Origin: Streptomyces deccanensis
GTDB lineage: Bacteria > Actinomycetota > Actinomycetes > Streptomycetales > Streptomycetaceae
NCBI RefSeq assembly: GCF_022385335.1
Contig: NZ_CP092431.1
Coordinates: 1,116,001-1,180,000 of the forward strand
Direction of reading: 5' to 3'
Length of the DNA stretch: 64,000 nucleotides
Below, one piece after another: positions 35,589 through 47,616 of this stretch. Within the stretch, counting starts at the first letter, position 1. Every line of letters starts with the position of its first letter. The notes beneath the pieces are model-generated. The model searched no databases. It saw only the letters and a program-made list of their open reading frames with translations, and was not told where the DNA came from. A program made the position numbers and the translations under genes.

Positions 35589-38243
35589 TCAGGCGGTCGT
35601 GCCCTGGCCCGCCTTGCGGGCCCGTCGGTGCAGGATCCAGCCCGTCACGGTGAGCGCGGCGGCCGAGGCGACCGCGCCGAGGACGGTCAGGCCGGTGGAG
35701 GCGAGGCTTCCGCCGCCTCCGGTGGTCGTGGTGCCGCCCGTGCTGCCGGAGGCGCCGGTCGTGCCGGTCGTGCCGGTCGTGCCGGTGCTCCCGGACGTCG
35801 AACCGCCGCCGGAGTCACCGCCGGTGGAGGTGCCTCCGTCGGTGTCGCCACCGCCGTCGTCGGTGTCCACCGGGTCCTGGCCGACGAAGGCGACCGGGAC
35901 CTTGACGTCCTGCGAGCGGTCGCCGGACAGGGTGTGGTCGGCGCGGGTGGCGAGGACGCACCGGGCCTTGAAGCAGTCGGTGTACTCGTCCTTGGCGTCG
36001 ATGGTCAGCTCGACCTCGAACGCGCCGCCGTCCTCGTACGGCGTGGCCAACTCCTCGCCGTAGTCGGGCGGGTTGGAGGAGATCCACGCGGAGGAGTGCG
36101 ACTCGCCCGTCATGTCGACGCCGCCGACGCACGGGGAGGGCAGTTCGCCCGCGCCGTTGTCGACGCAGAGGGCGACGTAGATGCCCTTCTTCTCGTCGTA
36201 GCCGGAGCCGGTGACCTTCAGGGTCTGGTTCTCGGTGGCGAGGTTGTTGACCGGGGTGACGGTGAGCTTCTGGCCGTCGGAACCGGTGACCGTCTTCGTG
36301 CCGGAGGGCTCGTCGTCACCGCCGTCGCCGCCCCCGTCGCCGCCGCCGGTGCTGTCGTCGGCCTCGGTGACGGTGAGGGTGAAGGCAGGGGTGCGGGTCG
36401 TGCCCACGGTGTTCTTGAACACGGCACGGTACTGGTAACCGTCGTGCGCCGCCTTCGCCTTGAAGGTGTACGTGTTCTTCGTCGCGCCCTCGACCGCCGA
36501 CCAGGTCTGGGCCCCGTCGGTGCTGACCTCCCACTGCACGGTGGGCTGGGGGGTGCCCTCGGCCGCCGCGACGAACGAGACCTCGTCGCCCGGTGCCACG
36601 GTCCGGTCGGTGGGGGACTGGGTGACCTTCGGGGACATCCGGCGGTCGAGCTTGGTGATCTCGCCCTCGCTGGGGCTGCTGACGTAGACGGTGGTGCCGC
36701 CGGGGGCGACGGCGAGCGAGGCCAGTCCGTTCTGGGACTCGTTGTCGACCAGCTTCGTGGGCACCGCGGCCTGCGCGTAGGAGGTGGTGTCGTACACGGC
36801 GAGATGGCTGGTGCGGTCGCCGCCGTTGCCGGAGTCGCCGTTGTCCTGCCAGACGACGAAGGCCCGGCCGGTGACGGTGTCGAAGGCGAGGTCGGCGGCC
36901 TGGTCCGCCTCGGCCCCGGTCGGCGCGTCGATGGTCTTCAGGAGCTTGGCGTCCTTGTCGTAGACGCGCACGGTGTTGCCGCTGCCCACCCAGGCGTTGC
37001 CGGTGGCCGGGTCCGCCTCGATGAACTGGACGTCGGCGGCGAGTTCGGCCGACGCGGTCACGGTGAAGGAGCCGGTGTCGATCCGGCGCAGGGTGCCGCC
37101 GGTGGAGCCCGCGGACCAGGCCGCGTTGTGGGCCCTGTCGACGCCGAGCACGGAGCCGCCCTCCAGGGTGAGGGTGCGGTTCTCCAGCGGGACGGCGGTG
37201 GCGATGTCCACCTCGGAGAGGGTGGCGCCCTGGGCGACCAGGACGGTGGTGGACTTGGTGCCGGGGCCGATCCCGGTGATGTTGGCGCCGGCGATCCACT
37301 TGCCGGCGGCGGCCGCGTCACCGGTCTCGGCGGTGCCGATGCCGCGCAGCGCGAACTGGAACACGGCGCCGTCGCCGGCGAGCGGGGCGGCGATCCGCAC
37401 GACGGCGCGGGGCGCGAGCGTGCCGGTGCTGCCCGGGGCCTGCGCGACGTGGCCGCGGCTCCTGCCGTCCACCGGGTCGAGGATGTGCAGACCACGCTCG
37501 TCGACCGTGCCCGAGGCGGCGAAGTTGTCCGAACCGGCGTACAGCTGCCCGGTCGTGGGGTGCAACATCAAGTCGTTGACCTTGCCGGCCGCCGTGAACG
37601 CGGCGGACTCCACGTACTCGACCGTTCCCGCGGGCACGTCCTCGCCCTCGCCGCCGTCGCCGCCACCGGTGTCCTGGCCCTCGAATCGGACGGGGATACG
37701 GACGTCCTGGGAGCGGTCGCCCGAGTTGCGGTGGTCGACGCGGGTGACGACGGAGCAGACCACCTTGGCGCAGTCGACGCCGTTGTCCTCGGCCTCGATG
37801 TCGATCTCGACGTCGAAGGTGCCGCCGTCGCCCCAGGCGATGGCGAGGCTGCCCTCGTACGGGTCGCCCTTAGGGACGATCCAGTGGGAGGAGCTGCCGG
37901 TACCGGTCTCGTCGGCGCCGCCGATGCACGGGGAGGGGATCTTGCCGTCGCCGTTGTCCTTGCACAGGGCGACGTAGATGGCCTTGGTCGTGTCGTAACC
38001 GGAGCCGGTGACCCTGAGCTTCTCGCCGTCGGGATCGAGGTTCGCGGAGGCGGAGACGGTCAGTTTCTGACCGTGCGCGCCCAGGCCGGTCTTCGGGGTG
38101 TCGGCGGCCTGCGCCGCGGTGCTCACCGTGACGGCGGTGACCGTGGCGGCCACCAGGGCGATCGCTCCGAGGAGCGCCGCGGGGCGTCCGAGCCGCGGTC
38201 CGGCGGCACGCCCCGGCCGCCGGCCCGTCGTGTCGTCTCTCAT
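35589..38243 (-). CDS. Large LASTG-anchored surface protein with two neocarzinostatin-like domains
   Basis: An 884-residue cell-wall protein. A signal peptide ends near TAAQAADT. Residues about 50-190 form a domain with VTGSGYDTTKAIYVALC, PSPCIGGAD and VTRVDHRNSGDRSQDV. A propeller-like region and an Ig-like domain (TVAPGDEVSFVAAAEG) follow. A second copy of the first domain precedes a Thr/Gly/Ser-rich stalk and the sorting signal LASTG, hydrophobic helix and RRARK tail. Two cysteine pairs (C...PC and DC...RC) and the strand order resemble neocarzinostatin-type folds. It sits in an iron-regulated cluster, so capture of heme or an iron chelate is an inference. ATG 38243. Confidence 0.8.
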   Translation of the reverse strand: MRDDTTGRRPGRAAGPRLGRPAALLGAIALVAATVTAVTVSTAAQAADTPKTGLGAHGQKLTVSASANLDPDGEKLRVTGSGYDTTKAIYVALCKDNGDGKIPSPCIGGADETGTGSSSHWIVPKGDPYEGSLAIAWGDGGTFDVEIDIEAEDNGVDCAKVVCSVVTRVDHRNSGDRSQDVRIPVRFEGQDTGGGDGGEGEDVPAGTVEYVESAAFTAAGKVNDLMLHPTTGQLYAGSDNFAASGTVDERGLHILDPVDGRSRGHVAQAPGSTGTLAPRAVVRIAAPLAGDGAVFQFALRGIGTAETGDAAAAGKWIAGANITGIGPGTKSTTVLVAQGATLSEVDIATAVPLENRTLTLEGGSVLGVDRAHNAAWSAGSTGGTLRRIDTGSFTVTASAELAADVQFIEADPATGNAWVGSGNTVRVYDKDAKLLKTIDAPTGAEADQAADLAFDTVTGRAFVVWQDNGDSGNGGDRTSHLAVYDTTSYAQAAVPTKLVDNESQNGLASLAVAPGGTTVYVSSPSEGEITKLDRRMSPKVTQSPTDRTVAPGDEVSFVAAAEGTPQPTVQWEVSTDGAQTWSAVEGATKNTYTFKAKAAHDGYQYRAVFKNTVGTTRTPAFTLTVTEADDSTGGGDGGGDGGDDEPSGTKTVTGSDGQKLTVTPVNNLATENQTLKVTGSGYDEKKGIYVALCVDNGAGELPSPCVGGVDMTGESHSSAWISSNPPDYGEELATPYEDGGAFEVELTIDAKDEYTDCFKARCVLATRADHTLSGDRSQDVKVPVAFVGQDPVDTDDGGGDTDGGTSTGGDSGGGSTSGSTGTTGTTGTTGASGSTGGTTTTGGGGSLASTGLTVLGAVASAAALTVTGWILHRRARKAGQGTTA

Positions 38244-38290
38244 GGGTACCTCATTCGTCGGGTGCGCCCCGCACCCGGGGGACGCCGAGG

Positions 38291-38318
38291 GCCGGGCCCC
38301 GTGGCGAAGGGGCCCGGC
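38291..38318. terminator. Hairpin between two surface-protein genes
   Basis: GCCGGGCCCC (38291-38300) and GGGGCCCGGC (38309-38318) pair perfectly with an eight-base loop. It lies 12 bases after the stop of the small secreted protein and before the large LASTG gene on the same strand. It may terminate or attenuate read-through between them. Confidence 0.65.
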
Positions 38319-38329
38319 CTGGTGGGTGG

Positions 38330-38869
38330 TTACTGGAAGGCGAGGGGGGCGTGGACGTCGTACTTGCGGTCGTTGCTGTCGAAGTGGTCGGCGCGGGTGA
38401 CCACCGCGCAGGTGACGTCCTCGCCGCAGACGCTGCCGTCCTCGAGGGTGGCCTGGACGTAGATGTTCACGCTGAAGGTGCCGCCGGTGCCGAACTTGGA
38501 GCTGTTGGCGAAGAGGCCGCCGAAGGTGTTGTTGATCCAGTGCGAGGCGCCGGTGGAGCCGGACTCGTCCTGGCCGCCGAGGCAGGGGGTCGGCTTGTTG
38601 GCGCCCTGCGTGCCGTTGACGACACAGAGGCCGACGTAGATGCCCTGGCTCGTGTTGTAGCCGGAGCCGGTGACGGTGATGACCTGGCCCGACGCGGCGG
38701 CCGTGTTCGGCGCGGTCAGGGACAGGTTGTAGGTCGTGGTGCCGTCGACGATCGTGCGGGTCGAGGTGGCGGCGGAGGCCGAGGTGGCGAGACCGAGGGT
38801 CAGGGCGGCGGAGGCGGCGACGGCGAGACCGGCGCGGGCGGCGGTACGGGCGGAGGGAACGACTCTCAT
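38330..38869 (-). CDS. Secreted single neocarzinostatin-like-domain protein
   Basis: A 179-residue secreted protein. The signal peptide ends near TSASAATS. The rest is one domain of the same type as in the flanking LASTG proteins: VTGSGYNTSQGIYVGLC, PTPCLGGQDESG, SHWI, GTFSVNI, and CGEDVTCAVVTRADHFDSNDRK. It has no anchor, so it is presumably released. It starts with ATG 38869 behind AAAGG and ends with TAA. A near-perfect iron box and a TTGACA -35 lie directly upstream, making this the best-supported iron-repressed gene of the cluster. The ligand is unknown. Confidence 0.82.
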   Translation of the reverse strand: MRVVPSARTAARAGLAVAASAALTLGLATSASAATSTRTIVDGTTTYNLSLTAPNTAAASGQVITVTGSGYNTSQGIYVGLCVVNGTQGANKPTPCLGGQDESGSTGASHWINNTFGGLFANSSKFGTGGTFSVNIYVQATLEDGSVCGEDVTCAVVTRADHFDSNDRKYDVHAPLAFQ

Positions 38870-38904
38870 CGGAGAGCACCTTTCTCGAGCACGAGGAGGC
38901 GTAC

Positions 38905-38947
38905 TTAGGTAAGGCTTACCTAACCTTGATCGAGATCTCTTTGTCAA
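38905..38947 (-). promoter_or_regulatory. Iron box (DtxR/IdeR/DmdR type) over the promoter
   Basis: TTAGGTAAGGCTTACCTAA (38905-38923) matches the 19-bp DtxR-family iron-box consensus almost perfectly. On the minus strand a perfect TTGACA (+ coordinates 38942-38947) lies 17-18 bases before a TTAGGT -10 inside the box. Iron-loaded repressor would therefore occlude the promoter of the small secreted protein gene. Confidence 0.88.
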
Positions 38948-39008
38948 CAGAACGCAAAGAACCTGCAACGGGCCTGCGCGCGGCCCGCGTTGACCCGGCC
39001 GGCGGGGC

Positions 39009-40013
39009 TCAGGAGACCGCCTCGTCGGCGACCACGGCGAACTCCGCGACCGCCTCACGACCCCCGGTCACGGAGTACAGCCGTACAGTGTGCGCGCCCT
39101 CGGTCGCGGTGTCGTACACCGGGAAGTCACGGGCGACCCGGCCCGACGCGTCGGCCACGGCCTGATAGCGGGTGTCGTCGTCGATCGCGACGAGCACGAC
39201 CTCGCCCGGCGCGAAGCCCTCGCCGGTGACCTGTTGACCGTCCCCTGCCGCGAGGCTCGTGCGGTCCACCGCCGCGGACGGGGACTCCCCCGTCTCCCGC
39301 TCGGCACCGGCATCCGCGTCGGCGCCCGTATCGGTGTCGGCGGGGCCCGTCGGTGTGTCGTTGGGGCCCGGCGGTGACGAGGAAGCGTCGGATTCGCCGG
39401 GCGACCCGTCCTGCGGATCGGCGGTCCCGGACGCGCCGGTTCCCACGGTCACGTCGAGCGGGGCGAGTTCGTCCCCCGCCGCGTACGAACGCCCGCTCCA
39501 TCGGGTGAGCAGTGCGGCGCCCTCGGCGGTCAGCGACACCCGTAGGCCGGACCAAGTGGCGCCGCCGCTACGGACGTTCGGCGTGGTGGCACCCGTGCCG
39601 ACCTCGGCCAGCGTCAGGTCATCGCTTTCCTCCGCCCGTTCGGCCCGCACCCGGAGGGTGCCGGTGCCGCCGTCGAGCCGCAGGCGCAGCTCGTCGAGGG
39701 TCAGGGGGTCGGTGCCGGCTCCGCCGAGCCGGATCGAGCCGTCGAGGGCGATGTCCGCGTCCCCCGCACCCGGGGTCGCGGTGCCGCCGTCGACCGGGAA
39801 CCAGGTCCGCCCGCCGGAGCCGCGCACGGCGGGCGCCCCGGCCGTCACCGTCGCGTCGGCGCCGGTGGACGCCTCGAACGCCGGTCCCCAGCTCGCGAAT
39901 CCGCCGGACACCTCGCGTGGGGTCTCGGCCCCGTCGCGCGCCGTCGCCGTGCCCTGGCACAGCAGGGCGAGCAACGCGCCCGCCGCCGTCACGGCGACAC
40001 CAGGTCTGTTCAT
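39009..40013 (-). CDS. HtaA-like domain secreted protein
   Basis: A 334-residue exported protein with signal peptide LLALLCQGTATARDG. Residues about 30-170 (VSGGFASWGPAFEASTG, then GSIRLGGAGTDPLTLDELRL and TGTLRVRAE) resemble the HtaA heme-binding domain of actinobacteria. The histidine often found after the GSxR strand is not present. A Pro/Thr/Asp-rich linker leads to a C-terminal Ig-like domain (VTGEGFAPGEVVLVAIDDD). There is no LPxTG-type end. It starts with ATG 40013 behind AGGGAGGA. It lies 100 bases downstream of the LASTG gene on the same strand, likely in the same iron-regulated transcript. Confidence 0.72.
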   Translation of the reverse strand: MNRPGVAVTAAGALLALLCQGTATARDGAETPREVSGGFASWGPAFEASTGADATVTAGAPAVRGSGGRTWFPVDGGTATPGAGDADIALDGSIRLGGAGTDPLTLDELRLRLDGGTGTLRVRAERAEESDDLTLAEVGTGATTPNVRSGGATWSGLRVSLTAEGAALLTRWSGRSYAAGDELAPLDVTVGTGASGTADPQDGSPGESDASSSPPGPNDTPTGPADTDTGADADAGAERETGESPSAAVDRTSLAAGDGQQVTGEGFAPGEVVLVAIDDDTRYQAVADASGRVARDFPVYDTATEGAHTVRLYSVTGGREAVAEFAVVADEAVS

Positions 40014-40112
40014 CACCTCGAAGTCCTCCCTGAAAGGTCGACCGCGCGGCCGACCGGACACCCCGACTCGGAAGCGTCGAATGATCTGTGGACGGCTGTT
40101 CTCGACACGCCG

Positions 40113-40925
40113 TCAGTTCGGGTCCGTGGAGTCGGACGTGGCCCCGGACACGGTCCCGGTCGCGCTGGCGGTACGGCGGTGGCGCGCCCAGAACCAGGCC
40201 GCCCCGCCCGCCGCGACCAGTCCGGCGGCGGTGATGCCGAGCGGTACGGCGGCGCTGCCGGTGCTGGCCAGCGGCTCATCCGAGGCACCCGTGTCGCTCG
40301 ACGTGCCGCCGGTGGTCGTCGTGCTCGTACCGGCCGACGGGGTCGCCGAGTTGCCGGTGCCCGGGTCGTCGGCGTCGCTGTCGCCCCCGGCTCCGGCGAA
40401 GGTCACCGGGATGCGGACCGTCTGGCTCTGGTCGCCGCCCCTGGTGTGGTCGTTGCGGGTGATCACGGCACAGGTCACGCCGGACTTGGCGCAGTCGGTG
40501 TTGGCGTCCTTGGCCCGCACCTTGATCTGCACGGAGAACGTGCCCTTGTGCCCGCTGCCCTGGTACGGCTTCGCCAACCCCTCCCCGTACGAGGGCGGGT
40601 TGGAGGAGACCCAGACCGACGCGCCGGAGTCGCCGGACATGTCGACGCCGCCCACGCAGGGCGTGGGGGTCTTGCCCGCGCCGTTGTCCACGCAGAAGGC
40701 GACGTAGATGCCCTTCTCGGTGTTGTAGCCGGTGCCGGACACGGTGACCGTCTCGCCGTCCGGGGCGAGTCCGGAGGATTTGGAGACGGTGAGTTTCTGG
40801 CCCTCGGGTCCGGTCGCGGAGCCGCCGGCTGCCATCGCCGAGGGGGCCGGGAAGAGGATCAGAGCACTCGCGACGGCGATGGCCGCCGGGGCTGCGCGCA
40901 GGGCTCGTAGGCCACATCTGTGCAT
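40113..40925 (-). CDS. LASTG-anchored protein with one neocarzinostatin-like domain
   Basis: A 270-residue surface protein with a signal peptide (LILFPAPSAMAAGG), one domain with VSGTGYNTEKGIYVAFC, PTPCVGGVDMSG, TFSVQIKVRA and CAKSGVTCAVITRNDH, a Thr/Ser-rich spacer and the sorting signal LASTG followed by a hydrophobic helix and ARHRR. LAxTG is the motif used by class E sortases. ATG 40925 has GGGAG upstream. ATG 40944-40946 is an alternative that would leave almost no leader after the iron box at 40954-40972. It diverges from the heme-binding lipoprotein gene. Confidence 0.82.
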   Translation of the reverse strand: MHRCGLRALRAAPAAIAVASALILFPAPSAMAAGGSATGPEGQKLTVSKSSGLAPDGETVTVSGTGYNTEKGIYVAFCVDNGAGKTPTPCVGGVDMSGDSGASVWVSSNPPSYGEGLAKPYQGSGHKGTFSVQIKVRAKDANTDCAKSGVTCAVITRNDHTRGGDQSQTVRIPVTFAGAGGDSDADDPGTGNSATPSAGTSTTTTGGTSSDTGASDEPLASTGSAAVPLGITAAGLVAAGGAAWFWARHRRTASATGTVSGATSDSTDPN

Positions 40926-40953
40926 CGGGGTCAGCACTCCCACCATAGGTAAC

Positions 40954-40972
40954 TCAGGTAAGGCTAACCTAA
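40954..40972. promoter_or_regulatory. Iron box shared by divergent genes
   Basis: TCAGGTAAGGCTAACCTAA matches the DtxR-family iron-box consensus with one deviation in the outer positions. It lies 29 bases before the LASTG gene start and 46 bases before the heme-binding lipoprotein start, so one site can control both directions. Confidence 0.85.
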
Positions 40973-41017
40973 AGTAACGAACACTTGGTTCGAACGGTAG
41001 ACATGGGAGGCGGTTCG

Positions 41018-42076
41018 ATGCGAAGGCCCGGAAGACCTCAACTCACCATCCCTCGAAGGGGAGTTGCCGCACTGGCCGTTGCTTTCGCGATGCTGGCGGC
41101 CGGATGCGCAGGCGGCGACGGGGGCGGGGAAGCAGCGGGGGCGAAGTCGTCGGCGCCGTCCGCTAGCGAGCGGGCGGCCGCCGCCCGGAAGCAGTTGAGC
41201 ACGAACTCCCTCGTGCCGCTGAAGGGTGCGGCGCCCACGCCCGAGTTGCCCGTCACGGTCGACTCGTCGGACGGCCGGAAGGTCACCGTCGAGGACGCCT
41301 CACGGATCCTTCCGCTCAACGGGGGCATCGCGGAGATCGTGTTCACACTCGGTCTCGGCGACAAGGTCGTCGGCCGGGACATCACAGCGACCTTCGAGGA
41401 GGCCGCGGACCTTCCCCAGGTGACCAAGGCGCACGACGTGAGCGCGGAGAGCGTGCTCTCGCTGGAGCCGACCGTGGTCCTCGCCGACACCGACACCGGG
41501 CCCAGCGAGGCCGTGGACCAGATCCGTGACGCCGGGGTCCCCGTGGTCGTCCTCGATCCGGCCAACGAACTCTCCGACGTGACCGCGCGGACGACCCGGG
41601 TGGCGGAGGCACTGGGTGTTCCGGCCGCGGGCAAGGCCCTCAACGAGCGCTTCGCCAACGAGTTGAAGGCGGCGCGGGCCGCCGTGCCCGAGGGGAGTCG
41701 GCCGAAGGTGGCGTTCCTGTACATGCGGGGGTCGGCCGCGGTCTATCTCATCGGCGGGAAGGGGTCGGGAGCGGACTCCCTCATCGACGCGGCCGGAGCG
41801 GAGGATGCGGGGGTGGCGGCCGGGCTGGACAAGCCGTTCACCCCGATCACCAGCGAGGCGCTCGTCAAGGCGCAGCCCGAGGTGATCCTGATGATGAGCA
41901 AGGGGCTGGAGTCGGTCGGCGGGGTCGACGGTCTGGTGGACATCCCCGGCATCAGGGAGACGCCGGCCGGGATGGACCGCCGGGTGGTGGATCTGGAGGA
42001 CGGGGTGCTGCTGAGCTTCGGGCCGCGTACGCCGTTGGTGATCGATATTTTGGTGGATCGGTTGCATCAGGGGTGA
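41018..42076 (+). CDS. Heme/hemin-type ABC transporter substrate-binding lipoprotein (HmuT-like)
   Basis: A 352-residue lipoprotein with lipobox LAAGC. The fold is of the TroA/helical-backbone type: ILPLNGGIAEIVFTLGLGDKVVGRDITATF, LSLEPTVVLADTDTGPSE and VEALGVPAAGKALNERF-like segments are those of hemin-binding HmuT proteins. ATG 41018 follows GGGAGG by seven bases, and an iron box lies upstream. Unusually, no permease or ATPase gene follows. The next 240 bases are an intergenic repeat and then paaE on the other strand, so the lipoprotein must use a transporter encoded elsewhere or be orphaned. Confidence 0.85.
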   Translation: MRRPGRPQLTIPRRGVAALAVAFAMLAAGCAGGDGGGEAAGAKSSAPSASERAAAARKQLSTNSLVPLKGAAPTPELPVTVDSSDGRKVTVEDASRILPLNGGIAEIVFTLGLGDKVVGRDITATFEEAADLPQVTKAHDVSAESVLSLEPTVVLADTDTGPSEAVDQIRDAGVPVVVLDPANELSDVTARTTRVAEALGVPAAGKALNERFANELKAARAAVPEGSRPKVAFLYMRGSAAVYLIGGKGSGADSLIDAAGAEDAGVAAGLDKPFTPITSEALVKAQPEVILMMSKGLESVGGVDGLVDIPGIRETPAGMDRRVVDLEDGVLLSFGPRTPLVIDILVDRLHQG

Positions 42077-42316: not shown

Positions 42317-43462
42317 TCACGTGTCGAAGTCCACCGTCAACGCGTCCGTGACCGGATACGACTGGCAGGTCAGGACGTACCCCGCCGCGACCTCCGCCGG
42401 CTCCAGCGCGAAGTTGCGGCGCATCTCGGCCCGGCCGTCCGTGACCAGCGCGCGGCACGTGCCGCAGACGCCGCCCTTGCAGGCGAAGGGCAGGTCGGGG
42501 CGGGTGCGTTGGGCGCCGTCGAGGACGCTGCGCTCGCGGGACAGCGCGGCGGTCGTGGTGCGGCCGTCGAGGACGACCGTGACCTCGCTGACGGGCCCCT
42601 CCGCGGCGACCTCCTCGTGCCGCGCCTCCCGGACCGGTTCGTCGTCGGCGTAGAACAGCTCCTGGTGGACGCGGTCGGCGGGGACGCCGAGTCCGTCCAG
42701 GACACGCTGGGCGTCGCGGACCATGCCGTGCGGGCCGCACAGCCACCAGTGGTCCGCCGTCCCGACGTCGACCAGGGAGCCGATCAGTGCCGAGAGCCGC
42801 TCGGCGTCGAGGCGGCCGGAGAGCACCTCGGCCTCGCGGGGTTCGCGGGAGAGGACGTGGGCGAGGTGGAAGCGGGCCGGGTACAGGTCCTTCAGGTCGG
42901 CCAGTTCGTCGGCGAACATCACCGTGCCCGTGCGGCGGTTGCCGTAGAACAGGGTCACGGTGGAGCGGGGGTCGGCGGCGAGCACGGACTCGGCGATGGA
43001 GACCATGGGGGTGATGCCGGAGCCGGCCGCGATCAGCACATGGTGGCCGGGGGCGGTGAGGTCCGGGGTGAAGAAGCCGGTGGGCGCCATGACCTCCACG
43101 GTGTCGCCGGGCCGTACGTCGTTGACCAGCCACGACGAGAAGAGTCCGCCCGGTACGACCCGTACACCGATGCGCGGGGGCGTCCCGGCCGGGGAGCAGA
43201 TCGAGTACGACCGCCGCTCGTCGCGCCCGTCGATCTCGCGCCGCAAGGTCAGCGACTGCCCCGGCGAGAACGCGAACTCCTCCGCCAGCTCCGCCGGAAC
43301 CTCGAACCCGACGGCGACCGCGTCCTCACAGAGCGGGCGTACCTCGGCGACCCGCAGGACGTGGAATCCCGGCCGTCGCCGCGCCGTTGCGCGCCCCGCC
43401 CCGCCCCGGAGAGCGGCCGAGGCCGGAACCCCTCTCGTCGGGCTCTCGCTGAGGCCTTCCAT
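42317..43462 (-). CDS. paaE: Phenylacetyl-CoA 1,2-epoxidase reductase subunit PaaE
   Basis: A 381-residue flavin/2Fe-2S reductase that passes NADPH electrons to the PaaAC oxygenase. It has a flavin motif RRSYSI, NADP motifs GSGITPM and WWLCGPHGM, and a C-terminal 2Fe-2S domain CKGGVCGTC with a further cysteine in VLTCQSYP. The N-terminus has a 30-residue arginine/alanine-rich extension before FHVLRVAEVRPL. The ATG at 43462 shares its A with the TGA of paaD, so translation is coupled. It is the last gene of the paaABCDE operon. Confidence 0.92.
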   Translation of the reverse strand: MEGLSESPTRGVPASAALRGGAGRATARRRPGFHVLRVAEVRPLCEDAVAVGFEVPAELAEEFAFSPGQSLTLRREIDGRDERRSYSICSPAGTPPRIGVRVVPGGLFSSWLVNDVRPGDTVEVMAPTGFFTPDLTAPGHHVLIAAGSGITPMVSIAESVLAADPRSTVTLFYGNRRTGTVMFADELADLKDLYPARFHLAHVLSREPREAEVLSGRLDAERLSALIGSLVDVGTADHWWLCGPHGMVRDAQRVLDGLGVPADRVHQELFYADDEPVREARHEEVAAEGPVSEVTVVLDGRTTTAALSRERSVLDGAQRTRPDLPFACKGGVCGTCRALVTDGRAEMRRNFALEPAEVAAGYVLTCQSYPVTDALTVDFDT

Positions 43463-43971
43463 CAGATCTCCTTGACGTGCTCGAACGGCTCGCGGCAGGT
43501 GTGGCAGCGCCACAGGGACTTGCAGGACGTGGCGGCGAAGCGGGACGTCTCCTCCGTGTCGGCGGAGTCGCAGCGGGGGCAGGCGACGGACCGTCGGGTG
43601 GGCGCCAGCACGAGGGGGACAGGGCCCCGGGGGGCCGCGCCGGGCGGGGCGATGCCGTGCTCCGTCAGCTTGCGGCGGCCGGCGTCGGTGATCCAGTCGG
43701 TGGTCCACGGCGGGTTCAACACCGTGCGGATCTCGACGCGTTCGTAGCCGGCGGCGCGCAGCCGCGCCGCCACGTCGGCGCGCATCTCGGCCATGGCGGG
43801 GCAGCCGGAGTACGTCGGGGTCAGGCTCGCGACGACCGTGCCGTCGGCCGTCAGCCGCACCTCCCGCAGGACACCCAGGTCGGCCAGGGTCAGCATCGGC
43901 AACTCGGGGTCCGGCACCTGTTCGGCGATGTGCCGGGCGCGCCGCGCGGGGTCGGTCAGGGTGGTCACCAT
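43462..43971 (-). CDS. paaD: Phenylacetate pathway protein PaaD (MIP18/DUF59 family)
   Basis: A 169-residue protein required for maturation of the multicomponent epoxidase, probably in Fe-S assembly. The DUF59 core reads VPDPELPMLTLADLGVLREV and TPTYSGCPAMAEM (conserved cysteine). The C-terminus carries a zinc-ribbon-like CPRCDSAD ... CHTCREPF. ATG 43971 overlaps the end of paaC by seven bases. Confidence 0.92.
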   Translation of the reverse strand: MVTTLTDPARRARHIAEQVPDPELPMLTLADLGVLREVRLTADGTVVASLTPTYSGCPAMAEMRADVAARLRAAGYERVEIRTVLNPPWTTDWITDAGRRKLTEHGIAPPGAAPRGPVPLVLAPTRRSVACPRCDSADTEETSRFAATSCKSLWRCHTCREPFEHVKEI

Positions 43972-44792
43972 GTCGCCTCCGGGTGGGCGCGGGCCACGCT
44001 CTGCAACTCGGCGAGCAGCGGCGCCAGATGCTCCGTGTGGTCTCCGGCGCGGCCCGCGCCCGCCAGCGGCCGGTAGACCGGCATCGGCAGGCCGGCCGCC
44101 TCGGTGACCTGGCGGAGCACGGCGGCGACCTCGTCCCGTACGTCGCAGGCGGTGAACAACTCACCGAAGTACGGGGCCACTTGCTCCATCGCCTTGCGGA
44201 TCCGCCGGTGCGACTCCCCTGTGCCGTCGCCCAGCCGGACGGCCCATTCGGCGGCGTACTGCCGGTGGTACGTCAGTTCTTTGACGCCCTTCGCCGCGAT
44301 CGCCGCGAGGACCGGGTCCGGGTGGGTGACCAGCCGCTCGAAGTGCGCGAGGCGCCAGCTGGACAGGACGAGCAGCCGGACGATGGAGAACGCGAAGTCT
44401 CCGCACGGGAGTTCGGCGAGGCGTACGTTGCGGAAGTCGGCGGCGTCCCGGAAGTAGGCGTACGCGTCCTCGTCGCCCCCGGTGCCGTCGACCTGCCCGG
44501 CGCGGGAGTACAGCAGACGGGCCTGGCCGAGGAGGTCGAGGCCGATGTTGGCGAGGGCGACCTCCTCCTCCAGCTCGGGCGCGCGGGTGGTCCACTCGGC
44601 GAGCCGCTGGGCGCTGACCAGGGCGTCGTCGGCCAACGCCACGCAGTCAGCGGCCAGTTCGGCGGCGTCCACGCCCTCGGGCACCGTGGTGTCGACGCCG
44701 TGCAGGGGGTCCTCGAAGCCGGTGCCGTACGCCCAGCGGGCGTCGTCCTCGTGTCCCTCGGCGAGGGTCAGGTAGACGTGGTCGTCACTCAT
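43965..44792 (-). CDS. paaC: Phenylacetyl-CoA epoxidase structural subunit PaaC
   Basis: A 275-residue ferritin-like helical protein that pairs with PaaA but does not carry the active diiron site. The landmarks EEEVALANIGLDLLGQARLL, DFAFSIVRLLVLSSW and KELTYHRQYAAEW are typical. It starts with ATG 44792 behind GAGGAG, 10 bases after paaB. Confidence 0.92.
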   Translation of the reverse strand: MSDDHVYLTLAEGHEDDARWAYGTGFEDPLHGVDTTVPEGVDAAELAADCVALADDALVSAQRLAEWTTRAPELEEEVALANIGLDLLGQARLLYSRAGQVDGTGGDEDAYAYFRDAADFRNVRLAELPCGDFAFSIVRLLVLSSWRLAHFERLVTHPDPVLAAIAAKGVKELTYHRQYAAEWAVRLGDGTGESHRRIRKAMEQVAPYFGELFTACDVRDEVAAVLRQVTEAAGLPMPVYRPLAGAGRAGDHTEHLAPLLAELQSVARAHPEATW

Positions 44793-44802
44793 ACCCTGCT
44801 CC

Positions 44803-45099
44803 TCAGATGTGCGGGACGTCGTCGGGGATGTCGTAGAACGTGGGGTGGCGGTACACCTTGTCGGCGCTGGGCTCGAAGAAGGGGTCCTTCTCGTCGCGGG
44901 TGGAGGCGGCGATGTGCTCGGAGCGCACGACCCAGAGGGAGACGCCCTCGTTGCGGCGGGTGTAGAGGTCGCGGGCGTGGGTGAGGGCCATCTGGTCGTC
45001 GGCGGCGTGCAGTGAGCCCACGTGGACGTGGTTCAGGCCGCGCTTGCCGCGGACGAAGACCTCGTACAGCGGCCAGTCGCCCTTGTTCGTGCCGGTCAT
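44803..45099 (-). CDS. paaB: Phenylacetyl-CoA epoxidase subunit PaaB
   Basis: A 98-residue small subunit thought to bridge PaaAC heterodimers. [39 protein letters not shown] and [16 protein letters not shown] are characteristic. I start at the ATG at 45099, which overlaps the paaA TGA as ATGA. The frame open to 45219 is a run-through of paaA. Confidence 0.93.
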
Positions 45100-46100
45100 G
45101 CCGCCGTCCCCTTCCGGGCTCGTTCGTCGCGCTTCGCCGCGTGGGCGGTGGCCGCCTCGCGCACCCAGGCGCCCTCCTCGTGGGCGGTGCGCCGCCGTGC
45201 CATCCGCTGGTCGTTGCACGGTCCGTCGCCGGAGATCACGCGCTTCAGCTCGTCCCAGTCGGGGGTGCCGAAGTCATGACGGCCGCGCTCCTCGTTCCAC
45301 CGCAGTTCCGGGTCGGGGAGAGTGACGCCGAGCTTCTCGGCCTGCGGGACGGTCATGTCGACGAAGCGCTGCCGCAGTTCGTCGTTGCTGTGGCGCTTGA
45401 TCTTCCAGGCCATCGACTGCGCGGAGTTGGGCGAGGCGTCGTCGGGCGGGCCGAACATCATCAGCGAGGGCCACCACCAGCGGTTCACCGCGTCCTGGAC
45501 CATCTCGCGCTGTGCGTCGGTGCCGCGCATCATCGTCAGCAGCAGTTCGTAGCCCTGCCGTTGGTGGAAGGACTCCTCCTTGCAGATCCGCACCATCGCG
45601 CGCGCGTACGGCCCGTACGAACTCCGGCACAGGGGGACCTGGTTGCAGATCGCCGCGCCGTCGACGAACCAGCCGATGACACCGACGTCGGCGAAGCTCG
45701 CCGTCGGGTAGTTGAAGATCGACGAGTACTTCTGGCGGCCCTCGATGAGGCGTCGGGTCAGGTCCGCGCGGTCGGCGCCGAGGGTCTCGGCGGCCGAGTA
45801 CAGGTAGAGCCCGTGGCCCGCCTCGTCCTGGACCTTGGCGAAGAGGATCGCCTTGCGGCGCAGCGACGGGGCACGCGTGATCCACTCGCCCTCCGGCTGC
45901 ATGCCGATGATCTCCGAGTGCGCGTGCTGCGCGATCTGCCGGACGAGCGTCCTGCGGTAACCGTCGGGCATCCAGTCGCGGGGCTCGATCCGCTGGTCCC
46001 GGGCGATCGTCGCGTCGAAGTGCTGCCGGAGGGCGTCCTCGGCGTCCGGCGTCCCCTCGGTGCCCCGGGACGGCTCCCCGGCGGAGTCTGTCGTCGTCAT
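45096..46100 (-). CDS. paaA: Phenylacetyl-CoA 1,2-epoxidase catalytic subunit PaaA
   Basis: A 334-residue diiron monooxygenase that epoxidises phenylacetyl-CoA, the ring-activating step of aerobic phenylacetate breakdown. Diiron ligand regions are visible as [15 protein letters not shown] and [16 protein letters not shown], with [16 protein letters not shown] earlier. ATG 46100 has GGAAG upstream. The frame open to 46175 would translate the operator. It diverges from paaK, with paired inverted repeats between them. Confidence 0.94.
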
Positions 46101-46116
46101 CGATACCAGCTTCCCA

Positions 46117-46266
46117 ACCGACCATTCGTTCGGTACCAGTGTGACGCGATTCGAGCGGCCGGGCAAGACCCGCACACCCCTTCACACCCCCCGGCGACTC
46201 CTTGACAGGCGTGGCCACGGCTGGGTTACATGACCGTGACGCACAGCAACCGAATGGTCGGTCGGT
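46117..46266. promoter_or_regulatory. Paired inverted repeats between paaA and paaK
   Basis: ACCGA-N8-TCGGT occurs at 46117-46134 (next to the paaA start) and at 46249-46266 (31 bases before paaK). Each copy contains an ACCATTCG or CGAATGGT segment, so the sites are related in inverted orientation. They are likely operators for a PaaR-type TetR repressor that responds to phenylacetyl-CoA. No such regulator gene is in this window. Confidence 0.6.
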
Positions 46267-46296
46267 TCACCGGGCGGTGAGCACGAAGGAGTCGCG

Positions 46297-47616
46297 ATGA
46301 GCACCCTGGGCGAGCCCCTCCCCCGCGACCTCCTGGACGCCGGCGAACGCCTCACCCCGAAAGACCTGCGCGGCCTCCAACTGCGCCGGTTGCGGGCCAC
46401 GTTGCGGCACGCCTACGACAACGTGGAGCTGTACCGGAAGAAGTTCGACGCGGCCGGAGTCGGCCCCGACGACTGCCGCTCGCTCGACGACCTCGCCCGG
46501 TTCCCCTTCACCACAAAGGCCGATCTGCGCGACACCTACCCCTTCGGCATGTTCGCCGTGCCCATGGCCGACGTGCGACGCGTCCACGCCTCCAGCGGCA
46601 CCACCGGGCGGCCCACGGTGGTCGGCTACACGGAGAACGACCTGTCGATGTGGGCGGACGTGGTCGCCCGCTCGATCCGGGCCGCCGGCGGCCGTCCGGG
46701 TCACAAGGTCCACATCTCCTACGGGTACGGCCTGTTCACCGGCGGCCTCGGCGCGCACTACGGGGCCGAGCGCGCCGGGTGCGTCGTGATCCCGGCCTCC
46801 GGCGGCATGACCGCCCGCCAGGTGCGGCTCATCCAGGACTTCCGTCCCGAGATCATCATGGTGACGCCGTCCTACATGCTCACGCTCCTCGACGAGTTCG
46901 AGAAGCAGGGCGTCGACCCGCGCACCACTTCCCTGGAGGTCGGCATCTTCGGGGCGGAGCCGTGGACGGAGGAGATGCGCCGGGAGATCGAGGAACGGGC
47001 GGGTCTGCACGCGGTCGACATATACGGCCTGTCGGAGGTGATCGGCCCGGGTGTCGCCCAGGAGTGCGTCGAGACCAAGGACGGTCTGCACATCTGGGAG
47101 GACCACTTCTACCCGGAGGTCGTCGATCCGCTCACGGACGCCGTCCTGCCCGAGGGCGAGGAGGGCGAGATCGTCTTCACCTCCCTCACCAAGGAGGCCC
47201 TGCCGATCATCCGCTACCGCACCCGCGATCTGACCCGTCTGCTCCCCGGCACGGCCCGCCCCGCCTTCCGCCGGATGCGCAAGGTCACCGGCCGCTGCGA
47301 CGACATGATCATCCTGCGCGGGGTGAACGTCTTCCCCAGTCAGATCGAGGAGATCGTGCTGCGCACCCCCGCCGTGGCCCCGCACTTCCAGATCCAGCTG
47401 ACCCGCCGGGGCCGCCTGGACCACATGACGGTCCGGGTGGAGGCCCGCCCCGAGGCGAGCCCCGAGCAGCGGGACGCGGCGGCCTCGACGATCACCCAGG
47501 CGGTCAAGGACGGCATCGGCATCACCGTCGAGACCACGATCGTCGCCCCGGAGACCCTGGAACGCTCGGTCGGCAAACTCAAGCGGGTGCGTGACCTCCG
47601 CGACGCCGCGATCTGA
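46297..47616 (+). CDS. paaK: Phenylacetate-CoA ligase
   Basis: A 439-residue adenylate-forming ligase that makes phenylacetyl-CoA from phenylacetate, ATP and CoA. The phosphate-binding loop is ASSGTTGRPTVVGYT. YGLSEVIGPGVAQEC and the hinge region RYRTRDLTRLL, MRKVTGRCDDMIILRGVNVF follow. It has the compact length of PaaK enzymes. ATG 46297 follows GAAGGAG. It diverges from the paaABCDE operon, from which it is separated by the shared operators. Confidence 0.95.
   Translation: MSTLGEPLPRDLLDAGERLTPKDLRGLQLRRLRATLRHAYDNVELYRKKFDAAGVGPDDCRSLDDLARFPFTTKADLRDTYPFGMFAVPMADVRRVHASSGTTGRPTVVGYTENDLSMWADVVARSIRAAGGRPGHKVHISYGYGLFTGGLGAHYGAERAGCVVIPASGGMTARQVRLIQDFRPEIIMVTPSYMLTLLDEFEKQGVDPRTTSLEVGIFGAEPWTEEMRREIEERAGLHAVDIYGLSEVIGPGVAQECVETKDGLHIWEDHFYPEVVDPLTDAVLPEGEEGEIVFTSLTKEALPIIRYRTRDLTRLLPGTARPAFRRMRKVTGRCDDMIILRGVNVFPSQIEEIVLRTPAVAPHFQIQLTRRGRLDHMTVRVEARPEASPEQRDAAASTITQAVKDGIGITVETTIVAPETLERSVGKLKRVRDLRDAAI

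Follow-up and report, generated by a model that had tools for sequence, protein, structure and literature searches.

Locus architecture

The window, a 64,000-nucleotide stretch of the Streptomyces deccanensis genome, contains a cluster of five genes (proteins A to E) and two putative iron boxes, arranged as follows:

35589-38243, minus strand: protein A, 884 aa, with a signal region, a neocarzinostatin-like domain (37680-38084), a beta-propeller and Ig domain (36354-37667), a neocarzinostatin-like domain (35883-36287) and a LASTG tail
38330-38869, minus strand: protein B, 179 aa, exported, with a neocarzinostatin-like domain (38333-38746) and without a wall anchor
38905-38923, no strand assigned: iron box 1, 35 bp before B
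39009-40061, minus strand: protein C, HtaA-like (PF04213), axial Tyr and helper His missing
40113-40925, minus strand: protein D, 270 aa, exported, with a neocarzinostatin-like domain (40395-40814) and a LASTG tail
40954-40972, no strand assigned: iron box 2, between D (28 bp) and E (45 bp)
41018-42076, plus strand: protein E, putative HmuT-type heme-binding lipoprotein

Coordinates and alignment agree with the original prediction that A, B and D share four copies of one domain: 36 of 151 aligned columns are invariant across the four, the other three copies share 43-54 % identity with the one aligned first, and the cysteines as well as the P(S/T)PC, GG, W, GG.F, TRxDH and PVxF elements are present as described. 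In A, the beta-propeller and Ig domain sit between two copies. Two wall-sorted proteins and a free one had also been proposed, and the tails read accordingly: A and D each show a basic tail and a hydrophobic stretch besides LASTG, and B has none of the three.

The repeated domain and its fold

Neocarzinostatin apoproteins are known carriers of enediyne drugs. Their fold had been proposed for the repeated domain, and structure prediction together with fold comparison supports this: the domain is predicted to be a seven-stranded neocarzinostatin beta-sandwich with the PF00960 fold, the Foldseek E-values against the neocarzinostatin fold being weak (1.4e-3 to 1.3e-2). The likeness in the PDB was reached by fold comparison only, as a sequence search with the domain profile did not find neocarzinostatin at E up to 5. 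PF00960 itself scored D at 25.4 and B at 19.2 (gathering score 25), and A was not listed at E 1. The suggested two cysteine pairs of neocarzinostatin type, putatively disulfides, find their counterpart in four cysteine columns that are each kept in 45-46 of 46 representatives. The W and RxDH are retained in 43-45 of the 46, judged, also for the RxDH histidine, from the aligned columns.

Compared with the apoproteins of neocarzinostatin, C-1027, macromomycin and actinoxanthin (PF00960, NF040680), the local domains nevertheless stand apart. They score well under the NF040680 cut-off of 86 bits (A 23.3, B 24.3, D 34.5), have a longer middle loop and carry the conserved W and RxDH, whereas all six chromoprotein-type domains inspected lack DH; moreover, the local proteins feature repeats, wall anchors and heme-gene neighbours.

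Iron boxes

The search used TTAGGTNAGGCTNACCTAA, which we take to be the DtxR-type iron-box pattern. Both promoter boxes that had been predicted were recovered with it, box 1 with 0 mismatches and box 2 with 1 mismatch, and they are conserved in relatives, an iron box being kept in 77 of 79 Streptomyces loci. Shuffling gave an expectation of 0.00. Across the whole 10.1 Mb genome only six distinct sites with at most one mismatch exist, two of them at this locus, and the reversed pattern yielded 0 sites in the same search; the probability that at least two of six randomly placed sites fall within 2,068 bp is 6e-7. As a point against the uptake reading given below, a 0-mismatch box was also present in control window L222. 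The promoter scan returned no sigma-70-like site, and the terminator scan one terminator-like site versus 0.8 expected. By its conserved promoter boxes the cluster would belong to the DmdR/DtxR regulon, with DmdR1 as the presumed regulator.

Proteins C and E

The HtaA-like protein and the heme-type lipoprotein that had been noted alongside were both recognized by Pfam models, C by HtaA (PF04213; 45.2 bits, cut-off 24) and E by Peripla_BP_2 (114.1 bits). The open reading frame of E was listed from a TTG at 40985, the ATG at 41018 being judged the likelier start, and a lipobox (LAAGC) was read by eye. E matches HmuT of C. glutamicum (5az3) at E 2e-51 and conserves the heme-site residues His, Tyr and Arg, whose roles have been described (PMC4926363). 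By this similarity and these residues, E is of HmuT type and a putative heme binder. It is the sole clear HmuT match in its own genome, the other being 28 % identical at E 6.5e-5. The genome's sole heme oxygenase, a FecCD permease and the single heme-type ATPase scoring above cut-off are grouped at 2.97 Mb; in another locus (L088), the surface half and the import half are found in one place.

Protein C, by contrast, is disfavoured as a heme binder, since its heme-ligating residues are lost. The axial Tyr in helix 1 is found in 0 of 65 C-type copies (genomes fetched twice included) versus 36 of 36 HtaA domains; in two of the 65 the stretch that follows the helix tryptophan does contain a tyrosine, and in 11 the tyrosine column is gapped. 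A sequence search of C against the PDB gave nothing of use. The HtaA/ChtA CR domains of Corynebacterium are, as is proposed for the neocarzinostatin-like proteins, iron-regulated surface heme proteins beside hmuTUV, but represent a different family from the neocarzinostatin-like domain, and the local HtaA-like copy is without the axial tyrosine.

Neighbourhood of relatives

Relatives of the domain were followed in 40 fetched loci, one or more per genus and a subset of the genomes with matches. Within 7 kb of the domain, HmuT was encoded in 38 of the 40 (30 of 31 genera outside Streptomyces) at a median gap of 273 bp, HmuU in 38, HmuV in 35, heme oxygenase in 19 and HtaA in 17, whereas 20 arbitrary windows from the same genomes contained no HmuT, HmuU, oxygenase or HtaA and one ABC ATPase. 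Four of the 40 loci were seed sources for the HmuT and oxygenase profiles. Left out of the set were L071 (second contig of G211), L166 (the window's own genus) and L198-L202 (weak domain matches); heme oxygenase is nearby in L198, L201 and L202, the latter two also having HtaA, HmuT, HmuU and HmuV. The domain is furthermore fused to HtaA (L068, L069, L071, L074) and to HmuT (P0267, P0269).

Several observations point the other way. L192 is without any of the heme genes, L179 (at a contig edge) is without HmuT, a local HmuT is absent from 34 of 79 Streptomyces loci (some at contig ends), and HtaA-fused copies of the domain are often degenerate and spacer-like. The idea that a full locus of this kind replaces the canonical HtaA cluster in Streptomyces was tried and rejected, the cluster being kept in 2 of 7 genomes with the full locus versus 38 of 74 others (p 0.43).

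A proposed surface relay for heme

We consider it likely, with a probability of roughly 0.7, that this cluster forms the surface half of a system for heme-iron uptake in which the neocarzinostatin-like domains take heme. As its relatives adjoin heme-import genes, the fold probably catches heme. An iron-regulated surface relay for heme or an iron chelate had been envisaged originally; neighbourhood and fusions uphold membership of a heme-uptake system, which favours heme over the unspecified chelate.

Under low iron, a DtxR-family repressor would leave both iron boxes, allowing transcription of D with C, of the divergent E, and of B with A. Sortase would fix D and A to the wall through LASTG, and B would be released. 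Heme, either free or drawn from hemoproteins, would be taken up in the cleft of the neocarzinostatin-like domains, where the RxDH histidine (B His162) is a probable candidate ligand, or else the conserved Tyr78 or Trp111. Heme would then pass to lipoprotein E and presumably on to HmuUV, encoded with the heme oxygenase 1.8 Mb away, which would free the iron. In the Isd/NEAT relay of Bacillota, wall-anchored beta-sandwich domains similarly hand heme to a lipoprotein; the role at this locus would be comparable, and none of the five proteins A to E has a Pfam NEAT match at E up to 1.

An unlikely alternative is that the domain binds protein instead of heme and serves at the wall as an Ig-like adaptor or spacer on which HmuT, a hemoprotein or an HtaA-type protein docks. 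Degenerate, cysteine-free copies that adjoin HtaA domains within a single chain (L069) and the propeller and Ig domain of A, which are common binding or spacer modules, would suit such a function, and the HmuT fusions are equally compatible with it. However, B is a lone secreted domain with 78-97 % identity among the 120 homologues listed, which include records named S. avermitilis; the predicted fold has a buried pocket with W and RxDH kept as above, and C has lost its heme ligands, leaving a need for another receptor. Quite improbable is a ferric siderophore or other tetrapyrrole (coproporphyrin, biliverdin) as ligand: iron boxes suit any iron source and the family of the substrate-binding protein also carries siderophores, but E has the HmuT heme ligands, and heme oxygenase and HtaA recur in 19 and 17 of the 40 loci. 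An enediyne chromoprotein, or a protein for self-protection against such a drug, suggested by the fold and the weak NF040680/PF00960 similarity, is rejected as extremely improbable on scores (23-35 bits versus 86; no NF040680 match in the own genome at E 1e-10) and gene context (heme neighbourhood in 38/40 loci, iron boxes in 77/79).

Wider significance and related domains

If heme capture by these domains holds true, proteins annotated as 'neocarzinostatin apoprotein domain-containing' gain a job and Gram-positive heme uptake another receptor domain, and heme use by a Streptomyces whose only HtaA-family protein lost its ligands would be explained. It would also hint at the origin of the drug carriers. 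The idea of a recruited chromophore-carrier fold stands as regards the shared fold, not as regards direction: of the 394 Actinomycetes genomes sampled, 76 have a match to the heme-operon domain profile (some of them weak) and 7 exceed the cut-off of the enediyne chromoprotein model (40 match it at E 1e-10), so that recruitment may have run either way. We give even odds to the broader proposal that heme binding comes naturally to the neocarzinostatin fold: iron-regulated heme receptors, wall-anchored and secreted, would form a family across Actinomycetes and Acidimicrobiia as a counterpart to the NEAT and HtaA/CR domains, the RxDH histidine would ligate heme, and the drug-carrying chromoproteins would be a small offshoot and not the source. 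Artificial metalloenzymes and hybrid oxidation catalysts have been built on neocarzinostatin as a scaffold, to judge from titles cited in PMC7411666 and PMC6288486; if our reading is right, nature placed an iron porphyrin in this fold before engineering did.

Similar domains are found in other settings. CwpG of Actinoplanes missouriensis, among sortase-related surface proteins, has a neocarzinostatin-like domain (IPR002186), and the passage on CwpG gives no iron or heme role (PMC13251363). When the domain profile is searched against PDB sequences, the best match (E 2.9e-10) is ThiX from the C. glutamicum bcc-aa3 supercomplex (7qhm), which differs in being a lipoprotein of a respiratory supercomplex, its soluble domain not resolved in 7qhm, but retains the W, DH and cysteines of the local domain.

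Layout and predicted iron control of the cluster

The cluster lies in a window (1,116,001-1,180,000) of a genome assembled as a single contig of 10.1 Mb and reads, leftwards from 42.1 kb, as E, D, C, B and A, with intergenic gaps of 51 bp (D-C), 139 bp (C-B) and 86 bp (B-A):

41018-42076, forward: E, HmuT-type lipoprotein
40954-40972: iron box 2 (DtxR-type site) between D and E, 28 bp to the D start and 45 bp to the E start
40113-40925, reverse: D, one neocarzinostatin-like (NCS-like) domain
39009-40061, reverse: C, HtaA-like
38905-38923: iron box 1, 35 bp ahead of B
38330-38869, reverse: B, one NCS-like domain
35589-38243, reverse: A, two NCS-like domains

The original prediction held that one domain recurs in four copies in A, B and D, that two of these proteins carry sorting signals and that the third is free. 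The domain alignment confirms the four copies, D and A both end in LASTG followed by a hydrophobic stretch and basic residues, and B stops where its NCS-like domain stops. In a structure model (pLDDT 92.2), A additionally contains an Ig domain and a beta-propeller, whose best PDB match is a tandem YVTN propeller. The closest named homologue of B among the matches listed (97 % identity) comes from Streptomyces caniscabiei. To the right of E (42317-47616), the ORFs resemble on visual inspection a phenylacetate-degradation cluster, with oxygenase-, reductase- and ligase-like members.

The presence of iron boxes at the cluster promoters was borne out as well: two of the six distinct sites found in a whole-genome scan (≤1 mismatch) lie here, and among 79 named Streptomyces loci (1.35 Mb together), chosen by the NCS-like domain alone, 77 carry one with ≤2 mismatches no more than 450 bp ahead of a domain. 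Both loci without one, L106 and L153, start at contig edges; elsewhere in the same 1.35 Mb there are five such boxes. The pattern is expected 0.00 times in the shuffled window, and its reverse matches nowhere in the genome.

Distribution and heme-gene neighbourhood

Profile matches to the NCS-like domain occur in 76 of 394 Actinomycetes genomes (31 of 137 genera, some of these matches weak), in 19 of 81 Streptomyces genomes, in 8 of 296 genomes sampled over the phylum and in 8 of 148 genomes of another class, judged to include Rhabdothermincola and an Acidimicrobiales MAG. Operons in the latter class run, for example in locus L070, heme oxygenase, NCS, HmuT, HmuU, HmuV, NCS. Outside Streptomyces, 40 loci from 31 genera were sampled, and at distances of up to 7 kb from the domain HmuT was found in 38, HmuU in 38, HmuV in 35, heme oxygenase in 19 and HtaA in 17, the HmuT and oxygenase profiles having been seeded from four of these same loci. 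The median gap to HmuT is 273 bp. L192 lacks HmuT, oxygenase and HtaA; in L179, which sits at a contig edge, HtaA is the one heme gene present of those sought. None of HmuT, HmuU, oxygenase and HtaA turned up in twenty hand-picked 18-kb control windows from elsewhere in the same genomes; an ABC ATPase was present in one of them and a perfect iron box in one (L222:10042, genome G412, whose NCS locus likewise carries a box).

Domain fusions point the same way: NCS-family domains, often degenerate, are joined to HtaA in one chain in L068, L069, L071 and L074, and precede HmuT in two metagenomic proteins (P0267, P0269). Separately, L196 and other g229 genomes carry very long ORFs (~2,500 codons) whose NCS-like domains are degenerate; in L196 they stand alongside several HtaA domains. 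Two findings count against a relay: 34 of the 79 Streptomyces loci show no HmuT in their fetched sequence, and the trend for full NCS loci to take the place of the canonical HtaA cluster is not significant. Interrupted or rearranged copies were also seen in Streptomyces, namely an HmuT match split into two stretches (L092:5802-6866) and shortened HmuT and D-type matches (L097:6717-7149).

A probable split heme importer

E belongs to the Peripla_BP_2 family, has 5gj3 and C. glutamicum HmuT (5az3) as best PDB relatives and keeps, in the alignment, the HmuT heme-site residues His, Tyr and Arg, whose roles are described in the available part of PMC4926363; the second-best E match in the genome reaches 28 % identity (E 6.5e-5). 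At 2.97 Mb (L232:5452-13366) lie the only heme oxygenase of the genome and its one heme-type ATPase over cut-off, with a FecCD permease between them, imelysin (EfeO-like) and Dyp-peroxidase (EfeB-like) genes after the ATPase and an IS4/5-type transposase upstream; neither an HmuT nor an HtaA match was found at this locus. The available text of PMC12161575 groups hmuO, htaA, hmuTUV and efe genes of S. coelicolor at SCO2267-2277. In L088, from one Streptomyces, NCS, HmuV, HmuU, oxygenase, HmuT, a box, a D-type NCS, C, a second box and three NCS domains stand in a single place. Since E is HmuT-like, the oxygenase, ATPase and permease lie at 2.97 Mb and L088 unites both halves, the cluster appears to be one half, receptors plus HmuT, of a heme importer split over two loci.

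Receptor candidates

In the CR (HtaA-type heme-binding) domains covered by the accessible part of PMC12494546, an axial tyrosine in helix 1 binds heme and, ChtA excepted, a histidine assists it in the domains studied. The tyrosine is kept in 36 of 36 and the histidine in 33 of 36 HtaA domains from the fetched loci; C-type copies have neither (0 of 65 each), and the S. deccanensis genome has no HtaA match besides C. This neighbour was therefore demoted as a heme binder. With its ligands lost, another wall receptor would be needed, for which the four NCS-like domains are candidates.

Among 46 representatives of this domain (mutual identity <70 %), a tyrosine (Y78 of B) is conserved in 42, W111 in 45, the arginine of RxDH in 45, D161 in 45, H162 in 43 and each of the four cysteines in 45-46. 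The RxDH stretch presumably falls in the loop lining the chromophore cleft of the neocarzinostatin structure. DH is missing from all six chromoprotein-type domains read, and three Streptomyces paralogues, whose fetched loci contain no iron box at up to 3 mismatches, have TRADF instead of RxDH:

L056:7718-8155
L058:8098-8529
L064:7405-7836

It is conceivable, at about even odds, that the neocarzinostatin fold is naturally a heme-binding one, with the drug-carrying chromoproteins a small offshoot; these odds allow for the fact that the seven of 394 genomes over the cut-off of the enediyne chromoprotein model NF040680 are accompanied by 40 weaker matches. The soluble domain of C. glutamicum ThiX (7qhm_M), a respiratory supercomplex subunit, matches the NCS-like profile (E 2.9e-10), shares its W, DH and cysteines and, judging from sequence, may share the fold; the available part of PMC8795186 describes it as left unresolved in the supercomplex structure.

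Proposed relay

The cluster falls within Gram-positive surface heme uptake, as a variant with another, putative receptor domain. By analogy, it would work as an Isd-like relay in which B is a putative free hemophore, D and A are putative heme receptors at the wall and E is the putative acceptor at the membrane, with HmuUV and heme oxygenase acting inside; the propeller and Ig domain of A would perhaps hold a hemoprotein. The iron-regulated heme or iron relay originally envisaged was largely right as to predicted fold, iron boxes and probable heme cargo, with the HtaA-like neighbour now an unlikely heme binder.

No paper combining neocarzinostatin and HtaA was found in a search covering only a minority of subscription papers, and titles and abstract openings of the listed matches for neocarzinostatin with heme, sortase, the family accession or phrases held nothing on heme uptake. 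The nearest published case is the Actinoplanes surface protein CwpG, for which a sortase study gives a neocarzinostatin-like domain (PMC13251363, in part). Accounts of the Streptomyces HtaA and heme genes in the available portions of PMC12161575 and PMC10060970 do not mention this domain.

Small genomes

Five loci of family f92 (L182, L183, L190, L191, L193), from genomes of 1.3-1.8 Mb with a locus GC of 45-50 %, combine the NCS-like domain with HmuT and HmuU; heme oxygenase was not found within any of these loci. Size and GC fit Nanopelagicales, which they suggest as a lead only, and the organisms are possibly heme auxotrophs, as reported for Nanopelagicales in the available parts of PMC10202952 and PMC12381374. 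If this lead holds, the cargo would be heme itself.
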